Positions 11,630 through 29,007 of a stretch of 29,007 nucleotides of DNA are shown piece after piece. This DNA comes from a virus. Every line of letters starts with the position of its first letter. The first letter of the stretch is position 1. Location: IMG/VR virus record IMGVR_UViG_3300042988_001629, positions 1-29,007 of that record. One strand, given 5' to 3'. The notes beneath the pieces were generated by a model. The model was not told where the DNA came from. It saw only the letters and a program-made list of their open reading frames with translations, and searched no databases. Made by a program: the position numbers and the translations under genes.

Positions 11630-12154
11630 ATGCCCCTCGAGTGCTTCGTCGCCATGACTCGCGCCTCGTGCCAGTCGCAGGGCTCGCCACCCATGGCGGC
11701 CGTCATCGCCTACAACCCGACGGCGACGCCACTCGTCATCCTCGGCGGGGTGCTGACGGTGAAGACGCTGGGCGGCTCACGCCAGGTGCCGTCGGCGAGC
11801 GGCGCTCTCCCGACGGGGCCCGGCAGCACCGGGGCCGTGCCTGCTGGCGGCTACGTCGTGCTGGGCCCGGTCTCGGTGGCCGTCCACAGCGCAGCGGCCG
11901 CCAACTCGTTCCAGGCCGTGGCGCAGGACACCCAGGGACAGCAGCCGGCGCACCTGTACGCGCCGGGGCCGCAGCCGCAAATCACCGTCCTGGTGGGAGC
12001 CACCCTCTACGTGTCCGACGGCACCACCTCTGAGGCTGCCACCGCGCCGCTGCTCGTCGACGTCGCCGTCGCTCCGCCTCTTGGCTGGCAGGGAGGGGCG
12101 CTCGAGCTTGCCTCTGCCAACAACCTCGTCACCTACCTCGCTGGGGTGCTCTGA
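11630..12154 (+). CDS. Beta-sandwich-like virion protein, copy 1 of a tandem paralog pair
   Basis: 174 residues. ATG 11630 lies three bases after the previous stop, with GGAG nine bases upstream. Predicted all-beta, with short alternating strands and a PAGG turn at about 81-84, like Ig-like surface domains. The end of the protein (SDGTTSEA, then GGALELAS, then NLVTYLAGVL) matches the end of the next gene's product (SDGTVSTA, GGGMQLSS, NLINYLTAFA), so the two are paralogs. The ATG of copy 2 overlaps this stop (TGATG). Likely head-surface or fibre-attached; function not shown. Confidence 0.65.
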   Translation: MPLECFVAMTRASCQSQGSPPMAAVIAYNPTATPLVILGGVLTVKTLGGSRQVPSASGALPTGPGSTGAVPAGGYVVLGPVSVAVHSAAAANSFQAVAQDTQGQQPAHLYAPGPQPQITVLVGATLYVSDGTTSEAATAPLLVDVAVAPPLGWQGGALELASANNLVTYLAGVL

Positions 12155-12660
12155 TGCCACTGACTCTCTCGCTCTCCCGGGGCGCTGCCCCGACCGACAC
12201 CGCACAAGGAAGCTCGTCCGTCTTCGTCGTCACGGCCACCAACGCCGGCGCCGCGGCACTCTCGCTCCGCACGCTGTCGGTGTACGAGACGAGCTCGACT
12301 GGCGCGCACGTCGACCAGCCCAGCTACTTGCGGCCCAACGCGCCGGCTGGCGTGGTGCCTGTCATCCCGGCCGGAGGCAGCGCGTCCTACGCCTTCGCCG
12401 TCTCGCTCCCGTCGCCTGCGGGTGCTGGTCCGAGTCCGCAGACTCCAGGTGGTGCGGCGGGACACGGCAACGCATGCCCGGCGCCCAACTCCACCGTCCT
12501 CCTCCGTGCCGAGTGCCTGGCGTCCGACGGCACCGTCTCCACGGCCCTCCTGTCGGTGCCGGTGCTGTCCACGATTGCCCCCTTCCCCATTGCCCAGGGC
12601 GGTGGCATGCAGTTGAGCTCGGGCTTCAACCTCATCAACTACCTCACGGCGTTCGCCTGA
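12154..12660 (+). CDS. Beta-sandwich-like virion protein, copy 2 of a tandem paralog pair
   Basis: 168 residues, ATG 12154, TGATG overlap with copy 1. The N-terminal half resembles an Ig-like domain (VFVVTATN strand, then IPAGGSASYAFAVSLP). A Gly/Pro/Ala loop (about 90-107) carries a lone CPAP, and the C-terminal segment is shared with copy 1. Divergence is large (similarity is convincing mainly in the last 60 residues), so the duplication is old or the copies evolve fast. Expected on the virion surface. Confidence 0.65.
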   Translation: MPLTLSLSRGAAPTDTAQGSSSVFVVTATNAGAAALSLRTLSVYETSSTGAHVDQPSYLRPNAPAGVVPVIPAGGSASYAFAVSLPSPAGAGPSPQTPGGAAGHGNACPAPNSTVLLRAECLASDGTVSTALLSVPVLSTIAPFPIAQGGGMQLSSGFNLINYLTAFA

Positions 12661-14107: not shown

Positions 14108-14565
14108 TGGCCTCGCGCATGCTGGCACTACGAGGGCCCGACGCTGGCGCCAACCGCCAGACGGACGCCATCGCACGGGTGGTGGATGAGACGGCGCAGC
14201 AGGTGCAGGCGACGCCCATTGGTGGCGCAGCGCCGCCGGCGTGGGTGCGGCCGCAACTGCTCAACGGCTTCGTCGACACGGCGCTGATGGCGGCTCCAGC
14301 CGCTTACCACGTCGACGCCCTCAGGTACGTGCACCTGTGCGGCGCCGTGGACACGGCTGCAGGGTGCGCCGCAGGCACGGAGGTGTTCAGGCTTCCAGCC
14401 GGCGCCAGGCCGGCCTCGCCGAGAACATGTGCGGTCGTGAGGGTGTCTGCCGGGACGTTTGCCATCGTCAGCATCGAGACGTCCGGAGCGGTCGTGACGG
14501 TGCAGGCGCTGCTTGCTGGCGCCACACTTGGGTTGGACGGTGTCGACTTCCTGGCGGAGGGCTGA
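14107..14565 (+). CDS. Fibre-like virion protein
   Basis: 152 residues, ATG 14107 (TGATG overlap; GGGGAGG upstream). After a short N-terminal helix (about 15-35), the protein matches the pattern of phage fibre C-terminal domains: W46 and LLNGFV (about 51-56), PAAYHVDALRYVHLCGAV (about 64-81), VFRLPAGARPASP (about 93-105), and the closing LGLDGVDFLAEG. This form is found in tail fibres and fibrils that touch the host or form trimers. It is unusual to see it as a separate gene between the adaptor and nozzle genes. Confidence 0.68.
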   Translation: MASRMLALRGPDAGANRQTDAIARVVDETAQQVQATPIGGAAPPAWVRPQLLNGFVDTALMAAPAAYHVDALRYVHLCGAVDTAAGCAAGTEVFRLPAGARPASPRTCAVVRVSAGTFAIVSIETSGAVVTVQALLAGATLGLDGVDFLAEG

Positions 14566-17500
14566 TGGCGCTCGAATTCACCACCGTCCCAGTCGATTTC
14601 ACGAAGGGGCTCGACACCCGGAGCAACCCGAAGCTGGTTCTCCCTGGGGACTGGAACCTCCTCGAAAACTGCACCCTGGCGGTCGACGGCGCGCTGACGA
14701 AGCGAGACGGGCACGTGGCAATGGTGGCGTCAGCCCAGGTCGAGGCCACCAAGGGACACGGACTGGTGGAGTTCGACGACGAGCTCCTCGTCATCAACGG
14801 GCCCAAGGTGTCGCGCATCACGAGCCCCGACAATCCGTCGGTGGCGACGCAGGCCGTTCAACTCTCCGGGCTGCTGCCGTTCCTGCACCTCACGCGGGAG
14901 TCGGTGGCGCGCTCTTCGGACCTCGCCGACTCGCCAGACTGCGCCGTCGGAGGCGGCGAAATCATGTACGTCTGGCGCACGTACTCCGCAGCCGGTGCGG
15001 TGACGGGCATCTCGTATGCCGGTTACGACGCAGACACGGGCGGGCTCCTGGCGTCCGGCCAGGCATCCAGCAGCGTCAACGCCTCGACTCCGAGAGTCGT
15101 CTGGGATGGCAGTGCGTTCGTGATATTCTGGCTTCAGTCCGGCAATCTGATTGGCTACGTCCGCACGGCCGGGCCGGCCCCGACCGGAAGCAGTACGATA
15201 CTGGTGGCCGCGGCAGGTAACGTGATTGACGCATGCGCGTTCGGAGGCGCAGACGTGTCTGCAGTCTCTTACTTGTCGACCGACGCGACTTACTCTGTCT
15301 TCTGCGCCAAAATAACCAGAGCAGCCGGCTTCCCAGTGCTGTCGGCAACAACTGGCCTGATGACTCAGGCTCAAATCCCAAACACAGCCATCGTCGGAAT
15401 CGCCACCGGCAAGCTCGGGTCCTACTGCGGTACGTACACCTACGCTCCTACGACGGGACTCGGCTACTCGCACGAAGGACTTGCCGGGGCCAACATCAAT
15501 ACCGCATGGGCGGCGAGTCTGGCGACGCTGCTGCGGTTCCCATCGGCCAACGTTGTGTCGTTCTGCCATGTCGCGGCGACCGACTGGGCAGACGGCCTGC
15601 CGCAGGCGTGCGTCTGCTTCGACCAGATTTCTGACTACGGTGGCGGCGGGGCAGGCGCCGGGACCAGGGACGTCTGGCGCACCTACGTCGAGGCCGGAGC
15701 GCCTGGTGCAGCCATGACGCTCATGCCTGGAGCTGGAACGGTCATCCGTTCTGCCGTCTACGTCGGTGGCGGTGGAGCCGGTCCGACATCACCGCAGGGC
15801 CCGTTCATCTGCGGCAAGCCTGTGGTCGTCATGCCTCCGACTTCTGCCGGAGCCGGGTACCTGGCTTGGCCTGGTACGGTGGCTCTGCCGTGCCGGATGA
15901 TTGCGGGCTCAGGCAACGCGCAGTCCGGAGTCTTCTTCCTCGACGCGGTGAGCGGCCAGGTGGTGGGCAAGGCCATGTACGGCCGCCTCGGGCGACTCCT
16001 TGGAGCCGAGACGTCCACTCCGTCTACCCCGTGGGTTGCTCCGGCTGGCGCGGTGTCGCCACAGCGACCGTACGCGAGCACCTTCGTCCTGCCGGTGCTG
16101 GAGTCCGGGCGCCTGAGCTTCGAAGACGGCATCGACACGACGGCCGTAGGCGTCGCGGCGCTGCATGTCACGCCGAATGCTCCGCACGGTAGCGACCCAA
16201 TGGGTGCCTTTGCGCCTCGTAGCGTCCAGCTTGGCCGCACGACGCACGTCGCCAACGGCATGTTGTCGATGTACGACGGCACCAGGATGTGCGAGTCCAA
16301 CTGGAACATGTACCCGGAAGGCATCTCTGTCACTCGCGCCGGCGGCGGCGGGACGTGGCCGGCCGGGCAATACCAGTTCGTGGCCGTCTACGAGTGGGTG
16401 GACGCCCAGGGACAGCGCCACCAGTCGGCACCGTCGCAGCCCTTCACGCTGGCAGTGACGCTCAATGACACGCTGACATTCCAAGTTCCGACGCTGTTTC
16501 TGACGTGGCGCTACGGCGTTAGACACGCGCTGTACGGCACGCTGGCCAACGGAACCATCTTCTATCGCATCACCGCAACCATCGCCAACCCGACGTTGAC
16601 GGCGTGGTCGTCAACTGTGGTGCTGAACCCGCCGGTGGCGAGCAACGAGCTCCTCTACACCCAGCCTGAGCAGGCCGGTACGACGCTCGCCAACGTCGCT
16701 TCTGGCCCGTGCTCGACGGTGGGAATCCACCAAAACCGCCTCTGGTGCGACCTCACGGACCAGGATGGCGCCATCCGGTACTCCCAGGAGTACGTCGACG
16801 GCGTTGGCCTGCAATGGAACGAGGCCCTCGAGCTCTCGCTGCCCGTCGGCTCCGGCGTGGTGGCGCGCACGGCCAGCATGGACGACACGCTTGTGGTGCT
16901 GGCGTCGGAGCGCGTCTACCGCGTCACGGGCTCCGGCCCGTCTCCGAGCGGAGCCAACAACGGCTACTCGACGGCGGTCGAGGTTCCGTCGGACGTGGGC
17001 GCATCCAACCCGCGCGCCGTGGTGGAAATGCCGGTTGGCGTCGTCTTCTTCTCGCGCAAGGGCTGGTACCTGCTGAGTCGAGACCTCGCCGTGCGCTACA
17101 TCGGGGCGCCGGTGAAAGGCTTCGACGGCGACACCTTCACGAGCGCGGTGCTGATGCCGGACCGCCAGGAGCTGCGCATCGGCAGCAGTCGGACGCGGTA
17201 CGATGGGTACTGGGACCCGACGGCTCCGACGGCATTAGGTGGGCCTCGTCTGACGTACAGCTACGTGTCCGACGCCTGGAGCATGGCGTCCGTCCAGAGT
17301 CGCACCGGGGCCGGGCAGCGGTGGCTTGCCACGTACGATGCGCGCTACTGGCGCGCCGCCGGGCGCTACGTCGCCGTCAGCCTCCAGGACGGCCTCAACG
17401 GCGACACGGCCGGCGTGTACTCTGACCAGGTCGGCACGTCCGTGGCCCCGCTTGCGGTCGGCATGCGCGCGCGCACGGCCTTCTTCCGTCTCGCCGGCCT

Positions 17501-21361: not shown

Positions 21362-23589
21362 TGGTCGCCCCACTGCCACCAGGCGCCGTGCTTGAGCCGA
21401 GCTCAGGCTACGCGCCGTTGCCTCCTGGTGCAGTGCTCGAGGGGTCGAGGCCGGTGGCCCCGGACACCTTCAAGTCCCGCGGCGTCCGCCAGCCCGACGG
21501 GACGTGGCTGGTGCAGACTCCGGACGGGCCCGTGCGCCTCGACGACGCCGGCAACCTCGTGGAGTCACCAGAGGACAAGCGCGTCAAGCGCCAGCTCGAG
21601 GACGCCCAGACGCGCGAGGGCGTCCTCTCGCGCATCGTCGCCACAGCCCAGGGTGGCGCCCAAGGCTTCGTGCCCCAGCTCGCCGGCCTCAAGGCTGCGC
21701 GCGAGGGTGGGGACTACGGGGAGGCCAGGGACGCCGCGCGCCGAAGCGTCGACCTAGCGGTGGAGGATGCCGGCGCGGGCTACGTGATGGCCGGCCAGCT
21801 GGCGTCGAGCGGCCTCGTCGGCGCGGAGACGGCCGCCGCCCGCATCGCCGTTGGCGGGGCGCTTGGGGCCGCCAACGCGGCTAGCGCCAGCAACCTCGAC
21901 CTCGCGGAGACGCTCAAGGGCGCTGCGCTGGGCGTGGGCGTGGGCGCTGCCGGAGAGGTGCTTGGAGCTGGCGTGCGCGCTGCGGCAGGCAAGGTGTCGT
22001 CGATGGCCTCCAGGGCCGTGGCGCGGCAGACGGCCAAGGACGCCGCGGCCGTGGAGAAGGAGATTGCCAGCCTCACCGGCAAGCTCGGGGGTGAGACGCA
22101 GAAAGGGAGCCGCTTGCTGGAGAATCTCCAGCGGGCCGCGACTGGGGAGCCAGCGCCCGGGGCCGCCGTGGCTGTCGGTGAGTCGGTCCAAGAGGCCGCG
22201 CTCCAGGCGCTGCGTTCCCCGGAAGCGCAAGAGCTCGCCGAGCAGGTGACTGGCTCCGCCCTCAAGGCCTACCCTGGACAGAAGGCGACGATTGACCGGC
22301 TCGCTGCCGAGCTCGCCGCCAAGACGGCCGGAGCCAAGCAAGAGGCGGCGCAGCGGACCGCGGACTACTTCGCGGCGCCCATCTGGCAGACGGAGGTACT
22401 CCCCCGCCTCAAGACGTTGGCGCCGCGGTTCGGTCTCGCGGCCGCAGGAGCCGTGGCCGGGGGCGCGGTGTCAACACTGGCTGGCACCGACGGTGGGCTT
22501 GGCCTCGGGCTCTCGGGCGGTTTCATCGGCGCGGTGCTGGGGGCCCCGGGCGTCAGGATGATGATGAAAAACGTGGCCAACAGCCCCCGCGTCCAGTTCG
22601 CGGTCGGGACTCGGCTGGCGCCGCTCCTCGAGGGCGCGGCCACGGCCATCAGCCGCGGCATCACGCCGACGGCGCAGGTGCTGGCCGGCCTCACGTTGAC
22701 GGAGGAGCACCTGGGCGACCAGACGCTGGCAGCTGAGCAACTCGTGGCGCGAGGTGGCCTCGACTCCGTCCTCGGTCGCCACCCTCCAGACGTCGGAGAG
22801 GCCACGGGGGTCAACGCACCCCAGACGCCGCTCGACGCGGCCATCCGTCAGACGGCGGCCATCGTGGCGCTTGGCGGCGCACTCGAGCGGCACCACGACG
22901 AGATTGACCGCGGCGTGGACGCCTTCCTGAAGGGCTCCGACAAGCCACTGGTGCGCGCCAAGGACGCAGCCGCGAAGGCGAAGAGCGACGCGCCTGCCGC
23001 AGTGGCGGACCCGGTGGCCATGGTCGACCGCATGGCAGCCAACACGGGCTCGCTCGCCGAGGTGGCCCCCGGCGTCCACGCGGCGCTGACCGACGTGGCC
23101 CAGCGCGCGGCCCAGCACCTGGCGGAGCTCGAGGCCGGGCCGCCTCCCAAGGGCCCTCTGTCGCGCCCACGGTGGCCGTCGGAGAGCGAGCAGCGTCTCA
23201 GCGCCGCTGCGCGCGCCGTGGCGGACGACCCGCTGCGCATCCTCGAGCTCGCCCGCACCGGGCGCCTGACGGGCGAGGCCATGCGCACGGCGACGGCCAT
23301 CTACCCGGCCCTGACGAGGGCCATTGGCGACCGTGCGCTCGACGCGGCGATGGAGGCGGGCGGCAAGCTCTCGAGGACCCAGCTCCTCATGCTGTCGCTT
23401 CTTGCCGGCGTGGACGTCGACGGCCAGCTGGGAGACACCGCGGCCAACCAGCGCACCATCCATGCGCAGTCGAGCAAGCCTTCGCTGGCTGGGACGCCCG
23501 AGGGCTCGCCAGCGAAGCCGGACCCTGGCAAACTGACGCTGGGCCAGCGGATGGCGCCACCACACGCACGACGGGAGCGCGACGAATGA
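21361..23589 (+). CDS. Second internal virion (DNA-ejection) protein, membrane-active type
   Basis: 742 residues, ATG 21361 (TGATG overlap, GGGAG upstream). The N-terminus carries APLPPGAVLE twice (3-12 and 18-27). Several long Gly/Ala-rich hydrophobic segments follow: about 137-175, about 185-212, and about 358-399, the last being the most membrane-like. The rest is Ala-rich helix. Internal proteins that cross from the head to the host membrane have this mix of Gly/Ala zipper segments and helices. No lysozyme or transglycosylase motif is visible, so any peptidoglycan-cutting activity must lie elsewhere. The stop overlaps the next ATG (ATGA). Confidence 0.72.
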   Translation: MVAPLPPGAVLEPSSGYAPLPPGAVLEGSRPVAPDTFKSRGVRQPDGTWLVQTPDGPVRLDDAGNLVESPEDKRVKRQLEDAQTREGVLSRIVATAQGGAQGFVPQLAGLKAAREGGDYGEARDAARRSVDLAVEDAGAGYVMAGQLASSGLVGAETAAARIAVGGALGAANAASASNLDLAETLKGAALGVGVGAAGEVLGAGVRAAAGKVSSMASRAVARQTAKDAAAVEKEIASLTGKLGGETQKGSRLLENLQRAATGEPAPGAAVAVGESVQEAALQALRSPEAQELAEQVTGSALKAYPGQKATIDRLAAELAAKTAGAKQEAAQRTADYFAAPIWQTEVLPRLKTLAPRFGLAAAGAVAGGAVSTLAGTDGGLGLGLSGGFIGAVLGAPGVRMMMKNVANSPRVQFAVGTRLAPLLEGAATAISRGITPTAQVLAGLTLTEEHLGDQTLAAEQLVARGGLDSVLGRHPPDVGEATGVNAPQTPLDAAIRQTAAIVALGGALERHHDEIDRGVDAFLKGSDKPLVRAKDAAAKAKSDAPAAVADPVAMVDRMAANTGSLAEVAPGVHAALTDVAQRAAQHLAELEAGPPPKGPLSRPRWPSESEQRLSAAARAVADDPLRILELARTGRLTGEAMRTATAIYPALTRAIGDRALDAAMEAGGKLSRTQLLMLSLLAGVDVDGQLGDTAANQRTIHAQSSKPSLAGTPEGSPAKPDPGKLTLGQRMAPPHARRERDE

Positions 23590-24301: not shown

Positions 24302-24825
24302 TGTTTGGCACCGGCGGCGGACTCACAAATCCTGGCTCATCTGCTTCGAGCACCTCGTTCGTGCCCACTGGCTCGATTTCCTCGACGACCGTCCAGGCGG
24401 CCATTGAGGAGGTCAACACCGAGTGTGTCCACATCGCAGGTACCGAGACCATCACAGGCCAGAAGACATTCAGCGACAGGCTCAACGCCTCGCAGGGTGG
24501 GTACGCCTTCTACGCGTCCGGCGGAGGTGGCTTCGGGTCGTCAGGGTCGGCGAACCTCGTCACATCTTCACTGGGCGGCGGCGCCGCGGCGAAGTGCGCC
24601 AAAATCGGCACACAGGTGGAGATTGGCTCGGTGCATGCCACCGCTCGCATCGCTTCGTTCTGTGCCGGCATCTACGCCACAGAGACAGAACTTGCCTGGA
24701 TGTCGGGAGCCGGCGAGCTCGAGTTCGCTCTTGCCGGAGTCGGAATCATCATGCGGAGCCCGGACGGCACGCGCTGGCGCGTGACTGTCACCAACGCTGG
24801 TGCGCTCCTGGTGGCTCCGGCATAA
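24301..24825 (+). CDS. Short tail-fibre-like protein
   Basis: 174 residues, ATG 24301 (TAATG overlap, GGGAG eight bases upstream). Residues about 25-58 show the classic phage fibre pattern: SISSTTVQAAIEEV, then HIAGTETITGQKTFSD. A Gly/Ser/Ala-rich beta region and a closing RWRVTVTNAGALLVAP strand pair follow, like fibre knobs and collar domains. It is too short for a full fibre, so it may be an attachment module that works with the tailspike encoded just downstream. Confidence 0.72.
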   Translation: MFGTGGGLTNPGSSASSTSFVPTGSISSTTVQAAIEEVNTECVHIAGTETITGQKTFSDRLNASQGGYAFYASGGGGFGSSGSANLVTSSLGGGAAAKCAKIGTQVEIGSVHATARIASFCAGIYATETELAWMSGAGELEFALAGVGIIMRSPDGTRWRVTVTNAGALLVAPA

Positions 24826-24828
24826 GTC

Positions 24829-26847
24829 ATGTCTTTTCTCGATGACGCCAGCGTGCTGGATGCGACCAAGACGGACGTCGCGCCGGCTGCTGTGCGTCGC
24901 CCTGACATCTCTGCCGAAGAGTGGAACCACTCGGCTCGAGCAGCGATGGACCTGCGCACCGGCGTGCTCGAGGGGCAGTACACGGGCCTCGTTGTTGGGG
25001 GCACGGCGGCCGTTGCGCCGACGGCGCGCGTGCGGACGAAGGCCGACGCGGCCGGACGACTCACCACATCTGCGGCTGGGGACAGGTACCGCACGCTCGG
25101 GCGGCCTTCGCACGTGCACGTGAGAGACTACGGGGCGGTCGGTGACGGGACGACCGACGACACGGCGGCAATCCAGGCCGCAATCGACGACTCGATTGGC
25201 CGGGCGGCTAAGCTGCTGTTCGAGCCGCTCACGTACCGCTGCGTGGGCCCGCTGCATGTCTGGGGAATCTCCAGGCTCGAGGGCGAGGGCCGCTGGCGCG
25301 ACAACCCGACCGTGCTGTCGTTCCCGGCCGGTTGTCCTGGGCTGATGATGCACTCGGCCGACTCATACGGCTTGCGCTCTGGGATTCACGGCGGGTGGTC
25401 GCAGTCGTCGTCGGTGCGAGGCATCAAGTTTCTCGGGACCGGGACCACAGCGGTAGGGCTACTTACGCACGCGCGCGTCAAGGTAACCGAGTGCGCGTTC
25501 GAGGGTTGGGGCGCAGGCTTCAAAATCCAGGCAGGGCACTACTGCACGCGTGCTGTCGTGACCTCGAAGACGGGATGGATGCCAGGCACGTTCAGCGCTG
25601 CGCCTTCTGGGGCCACCGGAGAAGTAGAGTTCGAAAGCGCTGCTTCTGGGAGCGCTCTGGTCTGGCTCTGGGTCGAGTCCGGTACGCTGGCGCCAGGAGA
25701 CACCATCACCGTCGGAGCGCAGACCTGCACCGTCAGTAGTGTCACGAGCCATCTTACCAACGCCAACAACGTCCAAGTGTCGGACGTGTGGTGCTACCTG
25801 GACGCGCTCGGACTGAGGGTCAGAGGTGGAGACGCCAACAGCTGTGCGTTTCGGGACGTGGAGGTCATGGTCTGCGCGCTTGGAATTCACGACTCAAGCT
25901 TTTTCGGGTCGCTTTGGGACCACCCGCACACCGAGGGCTGCACGGTCGGCATGCGGCTGGACGGCCCCGCCCAGACCGGGTTGGTGCACAGCGGGTATTC
26001 CGAAAATCTCAACCCATGTGAAATCTCGGCACCAAACGAGGTACGCGGCGGGTGGTGGGCGCACGGTTGGGTTGGAGCCGGAGGTGGAGTACCAGCGTAC
26101 GGAGCAGCTGGCGTGTACGAGGCCGGGCACATGCTACAGGCACAGTTCATCCACGGCGCACAGATGGGTTACTGGAAGGACTCGTCCGCAGCGGCCAACG
26201 GAGCCATTCAGGGCTACACGGACGGGCGCTACGGGCGCTCGTTTCTGAAGTACCGAGACGACGCGACCGGCGAGAGCGAATCTCGTTCTCGTGCGTGCTA
26301 TTACTGGAACGTCGAGAACTCACCAGGTGCAGCCGTCGGGTACGCCCTGGCGGCCCCCCGCACCGCGTACGGCCCTGGCGGGCGGGTGCTGGTGGCAGGC
26401 ATCGAGAAGATGTCTGAGGTGTCGCAGGGCCTGCTGAACTTCCCATTCGCCTTCTACCTGGACGGGCGGCGCCATGGGGTCGGGTCGGTAGCGAGTCTCT
26501 CTACCCTGCACACGACCTGGGATGTCGGAGCCGTGCTGTGGGAGCCGACGCCTACGGTGGGCAACCAGGTGGCTCGCGTGTGCGTCAAGGCCGGGACATC
26601 CGGCACCTACGCATCGGCGGTGACGGCCACGGCGGACGGCACCACGACGGTGGTTCTCTCGGCCATCGACCCGGCGCAAGCGCACCAAATCAAGCAGGGA
26701 GAGTACCTCACAATCCACGCGACGGCGGTCAGGGTCGAGGCTATCAGCGGCACGACCGTCACCACCGACGTGGTCGTTCCTGCCGGGTCCGGTTTGGCCA
26801 TCGCCTACACTCCACCGGTCTGGGGTACGTTCGGAGTCATCTCGTGA
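24829..26847 (+). CDS. Tailspike with pectate-lyase-type beta-helix, putative polysaccharide depolymerase
   Basis: 672 residues, ATG 24829, three bases after the previous stop, with only a weak ribosome-binding site, so translation probably follows the upstream gene. Residues about 1-95 form a virion-attachment region. VRDYGAVGDGTTDDTAAIQAA (about 98-118) is the pectate-lyase-3 start signature, leading into a right-handed beta-helix to about 520. A loop-like insert at about 245-320 interrupts the helix. The end (about 560-672) is a beta-rich C-terminal domain. Such spikes bind and often cut surface polysaccharide of Gram-negative hosts. Active-site residues cannot be assigned by eye. Confidence 0.88.
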   Translation: MSFLDDASVLDATKTDVAPAAVRRPDISAEEWNHSARAAMDLRTGVLEGQYTGLVVGGTAAVAPTARVRTKADAAGRLTTSAAGDRYRTLGRPSHVHVRDYGAVGDGTTDDTAAIQAAIDDSIGRAAKLLFEPLTYRCVGPLHVWGISRLEGEGRWRDNPTVLSFPAGCPGLMMHSADSYGLRSGIHGGWSQSSSVRGIKFLGTGTTAVGLLTHARVKVTECAFEGWGAGFKIQAGHYCTRAVVTSKTGWMPGTFSAAPSGATGEVEFESAASGSALVWLWVESGTLAPGDTITVGAQTCTVSSVTSHLTNANNVQVSDVWCYLDALGLRVRGGDANSCAFRDVEVMVCALGIHDSSFFGSLWDHPHTEGCTVGMRLDGPAQTGLVHSGYSENLNPCEISAPNEVRGGWWAHGWVGAGGGVPAYGAAGVYEAGHMLQAQFIHGAQMGYWKDSSAAANGAIQGYTDGRYGRSFLKYRDDATGESESRSRACYYWNVENSPGAAVGYALAAPRTAYGPGGRVLVAGIEKMSEVSQGLLNFPFAFYLDGRRHGVGSVASLSTLHTTWDVGAVLWEPTPTVGNQVARVCVKAGTSGTYASAVTATADGTTTVVLSAIDPAQAHQIKQGEYLTIHATAVRVEAISGTTVTTDVVVPAGSGLAIAYTPPVWGTFGVIS

Positions 26848-27089: not shown

Positions 27090-27405
27090 CCAGGTGATGG
27101 CCGTAGGTGCTGGCACGCTGAGCGGCGGGACGCTTGTGCTGGCTCTGGCCAAGGTGATGTTCGCTCGCCTCCTCACGCAGTTCGACGTCGTCGTCGCCAA
27201 GGTGGGCCAGCTCGACGTCGCGCAGGCGCAGACGCAGGCGCGCGTGGAGGCTGTCGACGAGCGCACGTCGCGCAACAGCGAGGACGTGGCGCGGATGGGG
27301 GCGCGCCTCGACGCAGTCCAGGGGCGAGTGGAAGGCATCTCCTCCAGCTACGGCCCTCGCCTCGCTGCGCTGGAGACGGCCGCCTCGCTGAGGGCTCAGA
27401 CGTGA
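27079..27405 (+). CDS. Membrane-anchored coiled-coil protein of the lysis module
   Basis: 108 residues, GTG 27079 behind AAGGAGG. An N-terminal hydrophobic helix (about 8-30, rich in Gly/Ala/Leu/Val) is followed by a coiled coil (about 38-100) with heptad-like LDVAQAQTQARVEAVDERTSRN. An N-terminal anchor with a coiled-coil ectodomain is the layout of inner-membrane spanins and of some holin partners. It lies directly before the endolysin (GTGA overlap). The i-spanin reading needs an outer-membrane partner, which the window does not clearly show in the usual form. Confidence 0.6.
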   Translation: MDADQVMAVGAGTLSGGTLVLALAKVMFARLLTQFDVVVAKVGQLDVAQAQTQARVEAVDERTSRNSEDVARMGARLDAVQGRVEGISSSYGPRLAALETAASLRAQT

Positions 27406-27887
27406 GCGCGAGGCGGGACATGTTCCTCACGTGGTGCCTCCAGCAGCTGAACGCGCCCATCCCGTACGTGTGGGGAGGCAAGGACCCTGGGCAGCGCCCA
27501 GGACGGGACTGGCGCGTCGGCGGGCTCGACTGCTCAGGCTTCGTCACGTACTCATTGCAGCTCCTCGGTGGGCCGGACTGGCGCGGTGCCTACAACACGG
27601 ACCGCCTCTGGACGGAGCTACCGCGCGTGGCGATGGGGGACGTGATGCCGGGCGACCTCGCGCTGTACCGCGGCCGAGACTCGAAGGGGCCTGACGACGT
27701 GGAGCACGTGATGGTCTACGTGGGCACTGGCGGTTCACCAGAGCGCGGGCTCGTCGTGGGCCAGGCGCGTGGAGGCTCCCAGGACGTGGACCCGAAGGTG
27801 TCGCGCCAGCTCGGGCGCGTGACTCGAATCGAAAGCCTGCTGTACCGGGACGGGTTCGCCGGGTTTGTCCGGCTCCCGCTGACGTAG
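27402..27887 (+). CDS. Endolysin, NlpC/P60 cysteine peptidase
   Basis: 161 residues, GTG 27402 (GTGA overlap, GAGGG upstream). The NlpC/P60 pattern is clear: PYVWGGKDPG, then GLDCSGFVTYSL with nucleophile Cys44, MPGDLALYRG (about 82-91) and EHVMVYVGTG with His102; the third polar residue is probably in the SQDVDP region (about 126-131). Such enzymes cut peptide links in the stem of peptidoglycan. No signal peptide or cell-wall-binding domain is present, so export should depend on the holin encoded next. The length fits a single-domain Gram-negative-type endolysin. Confidence 0.9.
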   Translation: MSARRDMFLTWCLQQLNAPIPYVWGGKDPGQRPGRDWRVGGLDCSGFVTYSLQLLGGPDWRGAYNTDRLWTELPRVAMGDVMPGDLALYRGRDSKGPDDVEHVMVYVGTGGSPERGLVVGQARGGSQDVDPKVSRQLGRVTRIESLLYRDGFAGFVRLPLT

Positions 27888-27896
27888 GAGGACACA

Positions 27897-28328
27897 ATGG
27901 ACACCTCGAAACCGCTGCTCTCAGGCCTTGCGGCCACCATCCTCGGCACCGTGGGCACGCTCGCCGCGGCTGTCTCGCCAGTCGTGCCTGCCCCGTGGGG
28001 TGCGCTCGTCGGAATCGTCGGCTTCCTCTGTGCGGCGTTGGCCGGACTCTCCGTTGCGGCGCCGAAGGTGACGGAGGGGCGGCCCGTTCTCCAGGGAGCG
28101 GCCCTCACGGTGGCCACCGGGGCCCTCTCGGTGCTGGTGCAGTTCTACCCCGTCGTACCGGCCGGGTGGCCCCAGTCGGTGGCCCTCGGAGTCGGCGCGC
28201 TCCTCGCGTGGCTGACCGGGCATGCCCTCCCTGCCCTGGGTGCCACCTCGCCCACGGTGGCACCTCCCAAGCCCGTGGAGCCGGTGGCGGACCTTGAGGA
28301 GGCCCGGCGACTCCTGGGCGGGCGATGA
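27897..28328 (+). CDS. Holin with about four membrane helices
   Basis: 143 residues, ATG 27897 with AGGAGG and a six-base spacer, one of the best ribosome-binding sites here. Hydrophobic helices lie at about 9-28, 34-55, 65-85 and 98-114. A proline-rich linker and a short charged C-terminal helix (VADLEEARRLLGGR) follow. Small size, several membrane helices, a charged cytoplasmic tail and position right after the endolysin all fit a holin, which makes the lesion that releases the endolysin. The family is not recognised by sequence. Confidence 0.75.
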   Translation: MDTSKPLLSGLAATILGTVGTLAAAVSPVVPAPWGALVGIVGFLCAALAGLSVAAPKVTEGRPVLQGAALTVATGALSVLVQFYPVVPAGWPQSVALGVGALLAWLTGHALPALGATSPTVAPPKPVEPVADLEEARRLLGGR

Positions 28329-28645
28329 AGCTGGGGCGCCTCGTCGCCCTTCTGTTGTCGCTGGTAGCCTCTCGGTGCGCCAGCGCGGCAGAGCCCGTCG
28401 TGCTGGTGGTGGACGAAGCCGTCCTTCGTGTGCACGATGGCGGAGTAGTCGAGGTTGGGCCTGGACTCTACCTCGACCGTGAGGCCTCCCTCACCGCCGC
28501 TGCCGCCGTGCGCGACTGCGCCGAGCCGCAGATTGCTCCTGCCCCTGCCCCTGCCCCTGCCGCGGCTGTGGGCTGGGCGCTGGTGGTTGGCCTCGCTCTC
28601 GGCCTCGTCGGCGGGGCGACGGTGGCTGTGGCGGTGACTCGGTAG
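28325..28645 (+). CDS. Putative unimolecular spanin (signal sequence plus C-terminal membrane helix)
   Basis: 106 residues, ATG 28325 (ATGA overlap with the holin). An N-terminal signal-like helix (about 3-15) ends near SRCASAAE, with Cys18 as a possible lipidation site although Arg at -1 is not canonical. A 55-residue ectodomain of mixed beta character follows, then a PAPAPAPA linker and a C-terminal membrane helix (about 79-103). Signal at one end and membrane anchor at the other is the layout of a u-spanin, which links outer and inner membranes in the last step of lysis. Cys64 in VRDCAEP could form a disulfide. The function is inferred from layout and position. Confidence 0.5.
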   Translation: MKLGRLVALLLSLVASRCASAAEPVVLVVDEAVLRVHDGGVVEVGPGLYLDREASLTAAAAVRDCAEPQIAPAPAPAPAAAVGWALVVGLALGLVGGATVAVAVTR

Positions 28646-28826
28646 TTCGTACCTCGTAGGGTCCGAGTTGGCGATGAAGGCTGAACGAGACCTCGCCCAC
28701 CGACACCGTCCACGACGACGGCGGGCCATCACGGCGCAGTTGTTCGACGGCGCAGGCAATTCCGGCTTCGTCGTCAGCAGCGACCGTGACGCCGACCAGG
28801 ACTTGCACGTGGGCGTACCTGGTCAC
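28491..28826 (-). CDS. Minus-strand orphan protein B, unknown family, paralog of protein A
   Basis: 111 residues from a GTG at 28826-28824, overlapping the stop of the upstream minus-strand gene as GTGA. The first 66 residues are a compact alpha/beta unit (VQVLVGVTVA strand, DDEAGIACAVEQLRR helix, then WTVSVGEVSF and GPYEVRTTE strands) and align without a gap to 60 residues of protein A, with 32 identities by my count. The last 45 residues (from PQPPSP) have no match in A, are Pro/Arg/Gln-rich, and overlap the 3' end of the spanin-like gene on the other strand by 155 bases. The stop may have been lost. Function unknown. Confidence 0.6.
   Translation of the reverse strand: MTRYAHVQVLVGVTVAADDEAGIACAVEQLRRDGPPSSWTVSVGEVSFSLHRQLGPYEVRTTESPPQPPSPRRRGRERGQPPAPSPQPRQGQGQGQEQSAARRSRARRQRR
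28538..28561 (+). repeat. Four tandem copies of CCTGCC
   Basis: Four exact copies of the hexamer in frame, coding for (Pro-Ala)4 in the linker of the spanin-like protein. On the other strand the same bases fall in the C-terminal extension of the minus-strand paralog and are read as a Gly-Gln run. Copy number could vary by slippage without shifting either frame. Confidence 0.85.
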
Positions 28827-29007
28827 GGCGGTGACTCGATGACGCGCACTTCGTATGGCCCGTCCTGGCGCAGTAGGCCTAACGAATCGCCACCCAGCGA
28901 CACCACCCAGCACGACGGTGGGCCGTCGCACCTCAAGCGCTGCAGCGCCTCCTTTACTCCAGCCTCGGTGGAGGTCTGGATTACGACGGGCACAGAGACA
29001 ACGGCGT
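28823..29007 (-). CDS. Minus-strand orphan protein A, partial at window edge
   Basis: Sixty C-terminal residues are visible, ending at a TGA at 28825-28823. The start lies beyond the right edge; comparison with protein B suggests only about six residues are missing. Shared features with B include EAG, the LR-x-DGPPS-x-W segment, RQ, GPYEVR and the exact end ESPP. A has Cys at two positions (RCDGPPSCW) where B has Arg and Ser. It is the only clear gene here, with B, on the minus strand, and may be part of a longer leftward operon. No known family is recognised. Confidence 0.65.
   Translation of the reverse strand, partial: AVVSVPVVIQTSTEAGVKEALQRLRCDGPPSCWVVSLGGDSLGLLRQDGPYEVRVIESPP

Follow-up and report, generated by a model that had tools for sequence, protein, structure and literature searches.

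The window analysed here is the whole of a soil-type phage contig in IMG/VR (29,007 bp), the right end of which is position 29007. As far as 28645, the calls of a simple codon-usage gene caller are all on the plus strand; they are followed by a single minus-strand gene at 28823–28993. The remaining genes had been said to point rightward throughout, and every other gene-like frame in the window indeed scores on the plus strand. Spurious long frames are common at the 69% GC content of this DNA (135 ORFs of at least 100 aa in the window). At the right edge, two small paralogous minus-strand frames (copies 1 and 2) face the rightward lysis genes, and the features of this region are as follows:

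27402–27887, plus strand: NlpC/P60 endolysin-like gene
27897–28328, plus strand: holin-like membrane protein, assigned by eye and position, used as synteny anchor
28325–28645, plus strand: final rightward gene (106 aa), converging with copy 2 and overlapping its tail
28491–28826, minus strand: copy 2 (downstream in transcription), a formal 111-aa ORF from GTG at 28826
28491–28628, minus strand: C-terminal tail of copy 2, running antisense to the last part of the lysis gene, with a low coding score
28630–28730, no strand: direct-repeat DNA unit of copy 2, 71% identical to 28827–28927
28823–28826, minus strand: GTGA overlap of the copy-1 stop with the copy-2 start
28823–28993, minus strand: copy 1 (upstream in transcription), a 56-aa frame from GTG at 28993 (...EAGVKEALQRLRCDGPPSCWVVSLGGDSLGLLRQDGPYEVRVIESPP), with its TGA stop at 28825–28823
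28827–28927, no strand: direct-repeat DNA unit of copy 1, 71% identical to 28630–28730

The product of the final rightward gene has, by eye, a signal-peptide-like N-terminus and a C-terminal hydrophobic segment. Copies 1 and 2 align without gaps over 60 residues (minus-strand positions 28826–29005 against 28629–28808). The initial annotation had counted 32 identities by hand over this stretch, with DGPPS-x-W and GPYEVR..ESPP in common, and recomputation returned exactly that number. The GTGA coupling overlap that it described is also present, the copy-1 TGA occupying 28823–28825 and the copy-2 GTG 28824–28826. The paralogous part of copy 2 comprises approximately its first 66 residues (VTRYAHVQVLVG...GPYEVRTTESPP). 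The two repeat units are direct and spaced 197 nt apart, and it is because of this spacing that the copies lie in different minus frames. Both copies are open across the 60 codons, and the homologous stop is missing from copy 2. No stop interrupts the frame of copy 1 before the contig end, which leaves its start uncertain: it may lie beyond 29007. The first 26 residues are weakly alike (9 identities), a count that was nonetheless equalled by none of 6,980 ungapped placements along the proteins of this phage (maximum 8). The window, up to its end at 29007, contains no third copy, and none was found in the related phages described below.

Over the 60 codons dN is 0.46 and dS 1.34, and in the core the values are 0.24 and 0.90, which places dN/dS between the copies well below 1 (about 0.35 for the whole and 0.27 for the core). 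The proposal that the two frames are real coding genes is backed by these ratios (0.27–0.35), together with the shuffles and codon usage given below, and the likeness between the copies is selected at the protein level.

No family had been recognised from the sequence, and this held in searches of Pfam, PHROGs, NCBIfam, PADLOC and PDB sequences, none of which gave a profile match at permissive thresholds. The domain likewise had no match in phage or plasmid records, IMG/VR or GTDB genomes, collections that may lack near relatives; homologs in other phages were not found among the collections searched. Searches by tblastn of copy 2 against phages and of copy 1 against plasmids returned no match. 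Peptide patterns derived from the two-copy alignment picked out 143 stretches in IMG/VR and 309 in GTDB genomes, of which none was confirmed, and the nine places in IMG/VR that carry the GPYEVR-x-x-E DNA pattern were all judged by profile to be chance occurrences. AlphaFold models were poor (pLDDT 56 for copy 2 alone and 53 with copy 1), both showing a helix-strand-strand-strand order with a possible strand before it. Foldseek gave no match to a solved structure below an E-value of 0.38; its best viral match had an E-value of 0.01, and several viral matches span approximately 60 residues, all of these being non-significant leads only. GMA3_74 (60 aa), picked by length as the GMA3 protein among the viral fold matches, was not a sequence relative.

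Related soil phages were found through the portal protein: G001 (IMGVR_UViG_3300033493_000006; 39,623 bp), which is probably complete because it carries a 127-bp exact terminal repeat, and G002 (IMGVR_UViG_3300021438_000038; 37,355 bp), in which the terminase is split across the contig ends. A third related contig is L071 (IMGVR_UViG_3300049856_000469). Neither the terminase nor the 1206-aa virion protein led to any relatives, and the relatives of the NlpC enzyme were far, cellular or unrelated. The window's phage, G001 and G002 share a large-virion-protein plan (1206, 1166 and 747 aa). Among 50,697 phage records, the 1166-aa protein and the portal had no match, while the terminase had only weak ones (22–28% identity among the matches listed). 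Two adjacent virion-region genes of the window, 11630–12154 and 12154–12660, are apparent distant paralogs; each matches the other's homolog in G001, as 11630–12154 also does in G002.

Like the window, G001 and G002 have syntenic structural genes and holin, the synteny running from terminase to holin at 41–76% protein identity. Homologs of the holin-like protein in G001, G002 and L071 are 57–62% identical to it. The endolysin slot between conserved neighbours has been exchanged, with the NlpC/P60 gene in the window (27402–27887) and a glucosaminidase-looking enzyme, recognised by eye, in the relatives (G001 24537–25049 and G002 22359–22892, in reverse-complement coordinates). To the right of the holin, both relatives carry a few small rightward genes and then a minus-strand block of approximately 4–6 kb. 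Profile scans of the G001 block revealed RecT (Pfam, E-value 3e-47), a YqaJ/RecE-like exonuclease, a phrog_874 protein and small unknown genes, and the YqaJ/RecE-like matches in the relatives' block had E-values of 4e-15 and 2e-50. The G002 block contains homologs of the RecT frame at about 61% identity and of the YqaJ-like frames at 58–79%. At least two neighbouring small genes of the G001 block are paralogous to each other. Small minus-strand genes that neighbour one another and have MSxDAKxxTT-like starts (G001 28292–29333 in reverse-complement coordinates; L055 10291–11332) look like another tandem-duplicated set of small genes in that leftward block.

G001 and G002 differ from the window in that the few small rightward genes separate holin from block and in having no small gene related to the 60-residue domain. 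In L071 an NlpC-like gene, the holin homolog and a signal-peptide-like gene are followed at once by leftward genes, as in the window, a gene with a hydrophobic stretch occupying the place of 28325–28645. Its structural genes, however, are not detectably related: the holin (57% identical) and a weak NlpC match are all that it shares with the window, and its leftward genes encode ParB-like, AAA and PD-(D/E)XK proteins together with other small orphans. Within the leftward block of L071, at 14355–15046, a low-complexity frame with GSGSGDGDGYGYG-type repeats overlaps with a DUF6948 gene. Convergent leftward DNA-metabolism blocks are also known in other phages (PMC13313380). The same large-scale plan, with the leftward block in the right arm, is seen in actinophages: in Gordonia phage GMA3 (KR063279), with rightward structural and lysis genes, a leftward DNA-metabolism block and many small unknown genes, and in Rhodococcus cluster CA phages, with rightward structural genes and a leftward block containing DNA-metabolism genes (PMC13313380), although neither has any sequence relation to the window.

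The pair therefore most likely consists of promoter-distal early-operon genes, because the relatives have a leftward block on the right-hand side of their lysis cassette. More fully, the two copies are very probably tandem-duplicated small accessory genes at the 3′ end of a leftward early operon that converges with the rightward structural/lysis operon. That they form the edge of a leftward early block had been suggested from the window alone, and the minus-strand block beside the homologous lysis cassette in G001, G002 and L071 supports this, although in this phage itself the contig stops at 29007, short of where such a block would lie. An ancestral gene of approximately 60 codons would have been duplicated in place as a unit of about 197 nt, after which the copies would have diverged under purifying selection. 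The leftward and rightward operons would meet near 28.6 kb, and translation of copy 2 would probably be coupled to that of copy 1 via the GTGA overlap. The products, of approximately 60–66 residues, may adopt a fold with a weakly predicted beta-alpha-beta-beta-beta pattern. By analogy with the relatives, the pair may be co-transcribed with a recombination block, and roughly 8–10 kb of this phage's genome would be expected to be missing here. A scan restricted to sigma-70 types turned up neither a promoter-like site nor a terminator-like one on the minus strand. The 60-residue domain is absent from G001, G002 and L071, so that the pair does not count among the conserved elements of the block. 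The gene call is sound and the arrangement is ordinary phage biology, new only as an orphan duplicated family; it makes a convergent lysis/early-gene junction recognisable at a contig edge, tied to the recombination block via the relatives.

As to function, an early host-interaction accessory pair is the first guess, held tentatively, since such roles are usual for small non-conserved genes of these blocks; the second choice would be a replication/recombination helper. It is possible, if somewhat doubtful, that the duplicated genes encode anti-defence or host-takeover proteins, the copy number or divergence of which would be selected against host defence through dose or two targets. Small, non-conserved, duplicated genes of an early block match the habit of anti-defence genes, and tandem amplification of the counter-defence gene tifA has been documented in T4 (PMC9391042). 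However, no specific feature speaks for this role, no sequence or structural match to a known inhibitor was obtained in Pfam, PHROGs, NCBIfam, PADLOC or the PDB, and small genes with other functions have the same appearance in early blocks.

The position of the copy-1 TGA reads CAG in copy 2, the frame of which runs past ESPP to 28491. Over this tail (28491–28628) the minus frame has a codon log-odds score of −11.8, and the overlapping plus-strand gene (28325–28645) scores +9.6; the tail probably arose as a passenger extension once the ancestral stop was lost. Because of this loss copy 2 could be decaying, and it may be losing function. A decaying copy 2 that runs stopless into the lysis gene, with copy 1 alone functional, is nevertheless rather unlikely: the CAG codon and the non-coding score of the tail fit such a pseudogene, as does the choice of copy 1 rather than the whole copy-2 ORF by the simple gene caller, but the paralogous part is intact, scores as coding and retains both DGPPSxW and GPYEVR.

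A long shot is that the domain founds a new family of early proteins, in which two diverged duplicates, forming a heterodimer or a two-target inhibitor for example, would act against host defence and a larger array would continue beyond the contig edge. What the locus adds is a duplicated family of small orphan genes, which could join screens of early phage genes; alone, it settles no open question.

It is quite improbable that a non-coding element between convergent operons, such as a duplicated regulatory or replication/packaging site, accounts for the repeat and that the frames are accidental. The abundance of long spurious frames at this GC content would suit such an element, as would the modest third-position excess of differences: codon positions 1, 2 and 3 differ at 22, 19 and 35 sites over the 60 codons and at 5, 8 and 17 in the last 34 (chi-square p = 0.058 overall and 0.020 in the core). 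Against this, 32 identities were reached in none of 5,000 shuffles (whole-column, within-codon or 12-nt-block), the BLOSUM score was likewise above every codon-internal and block shuffle, and protein-level similarity persists in the upstream part, where DNA identity is only 41%. In both copies codon usage also points to the minus frames, with log-odds of +6.5 (copy 1) and +5.1 (copy 2), the plus frames reaching no more than +1.3 and −5.7, although codon scores of single 180-nt stretches are weak (the mean for true genes is 14.7, sd 10.6).

The strand cannot be told from wobble periodicity alone, because the antisense plus frame shares the third positions and keeps 30/59 identities. The least probable reading, that this plus frame, open through copy 1 (28668–29006), is the gene, is countered by two stops that interrupt this frame in copy 2, by codon scores of +1.3 and −12.9, and by high GC at its putative second codon position. 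The GC contents of the minus frames by codon position (0.70/0.50/0.77 and 0.75/0.52/0.68) are lowest at the second position and resemble those of the phage's genes. Given the plus-frame stops, the lower plus codon scores and the misplaced plus GC, the minus strand is the better reading.
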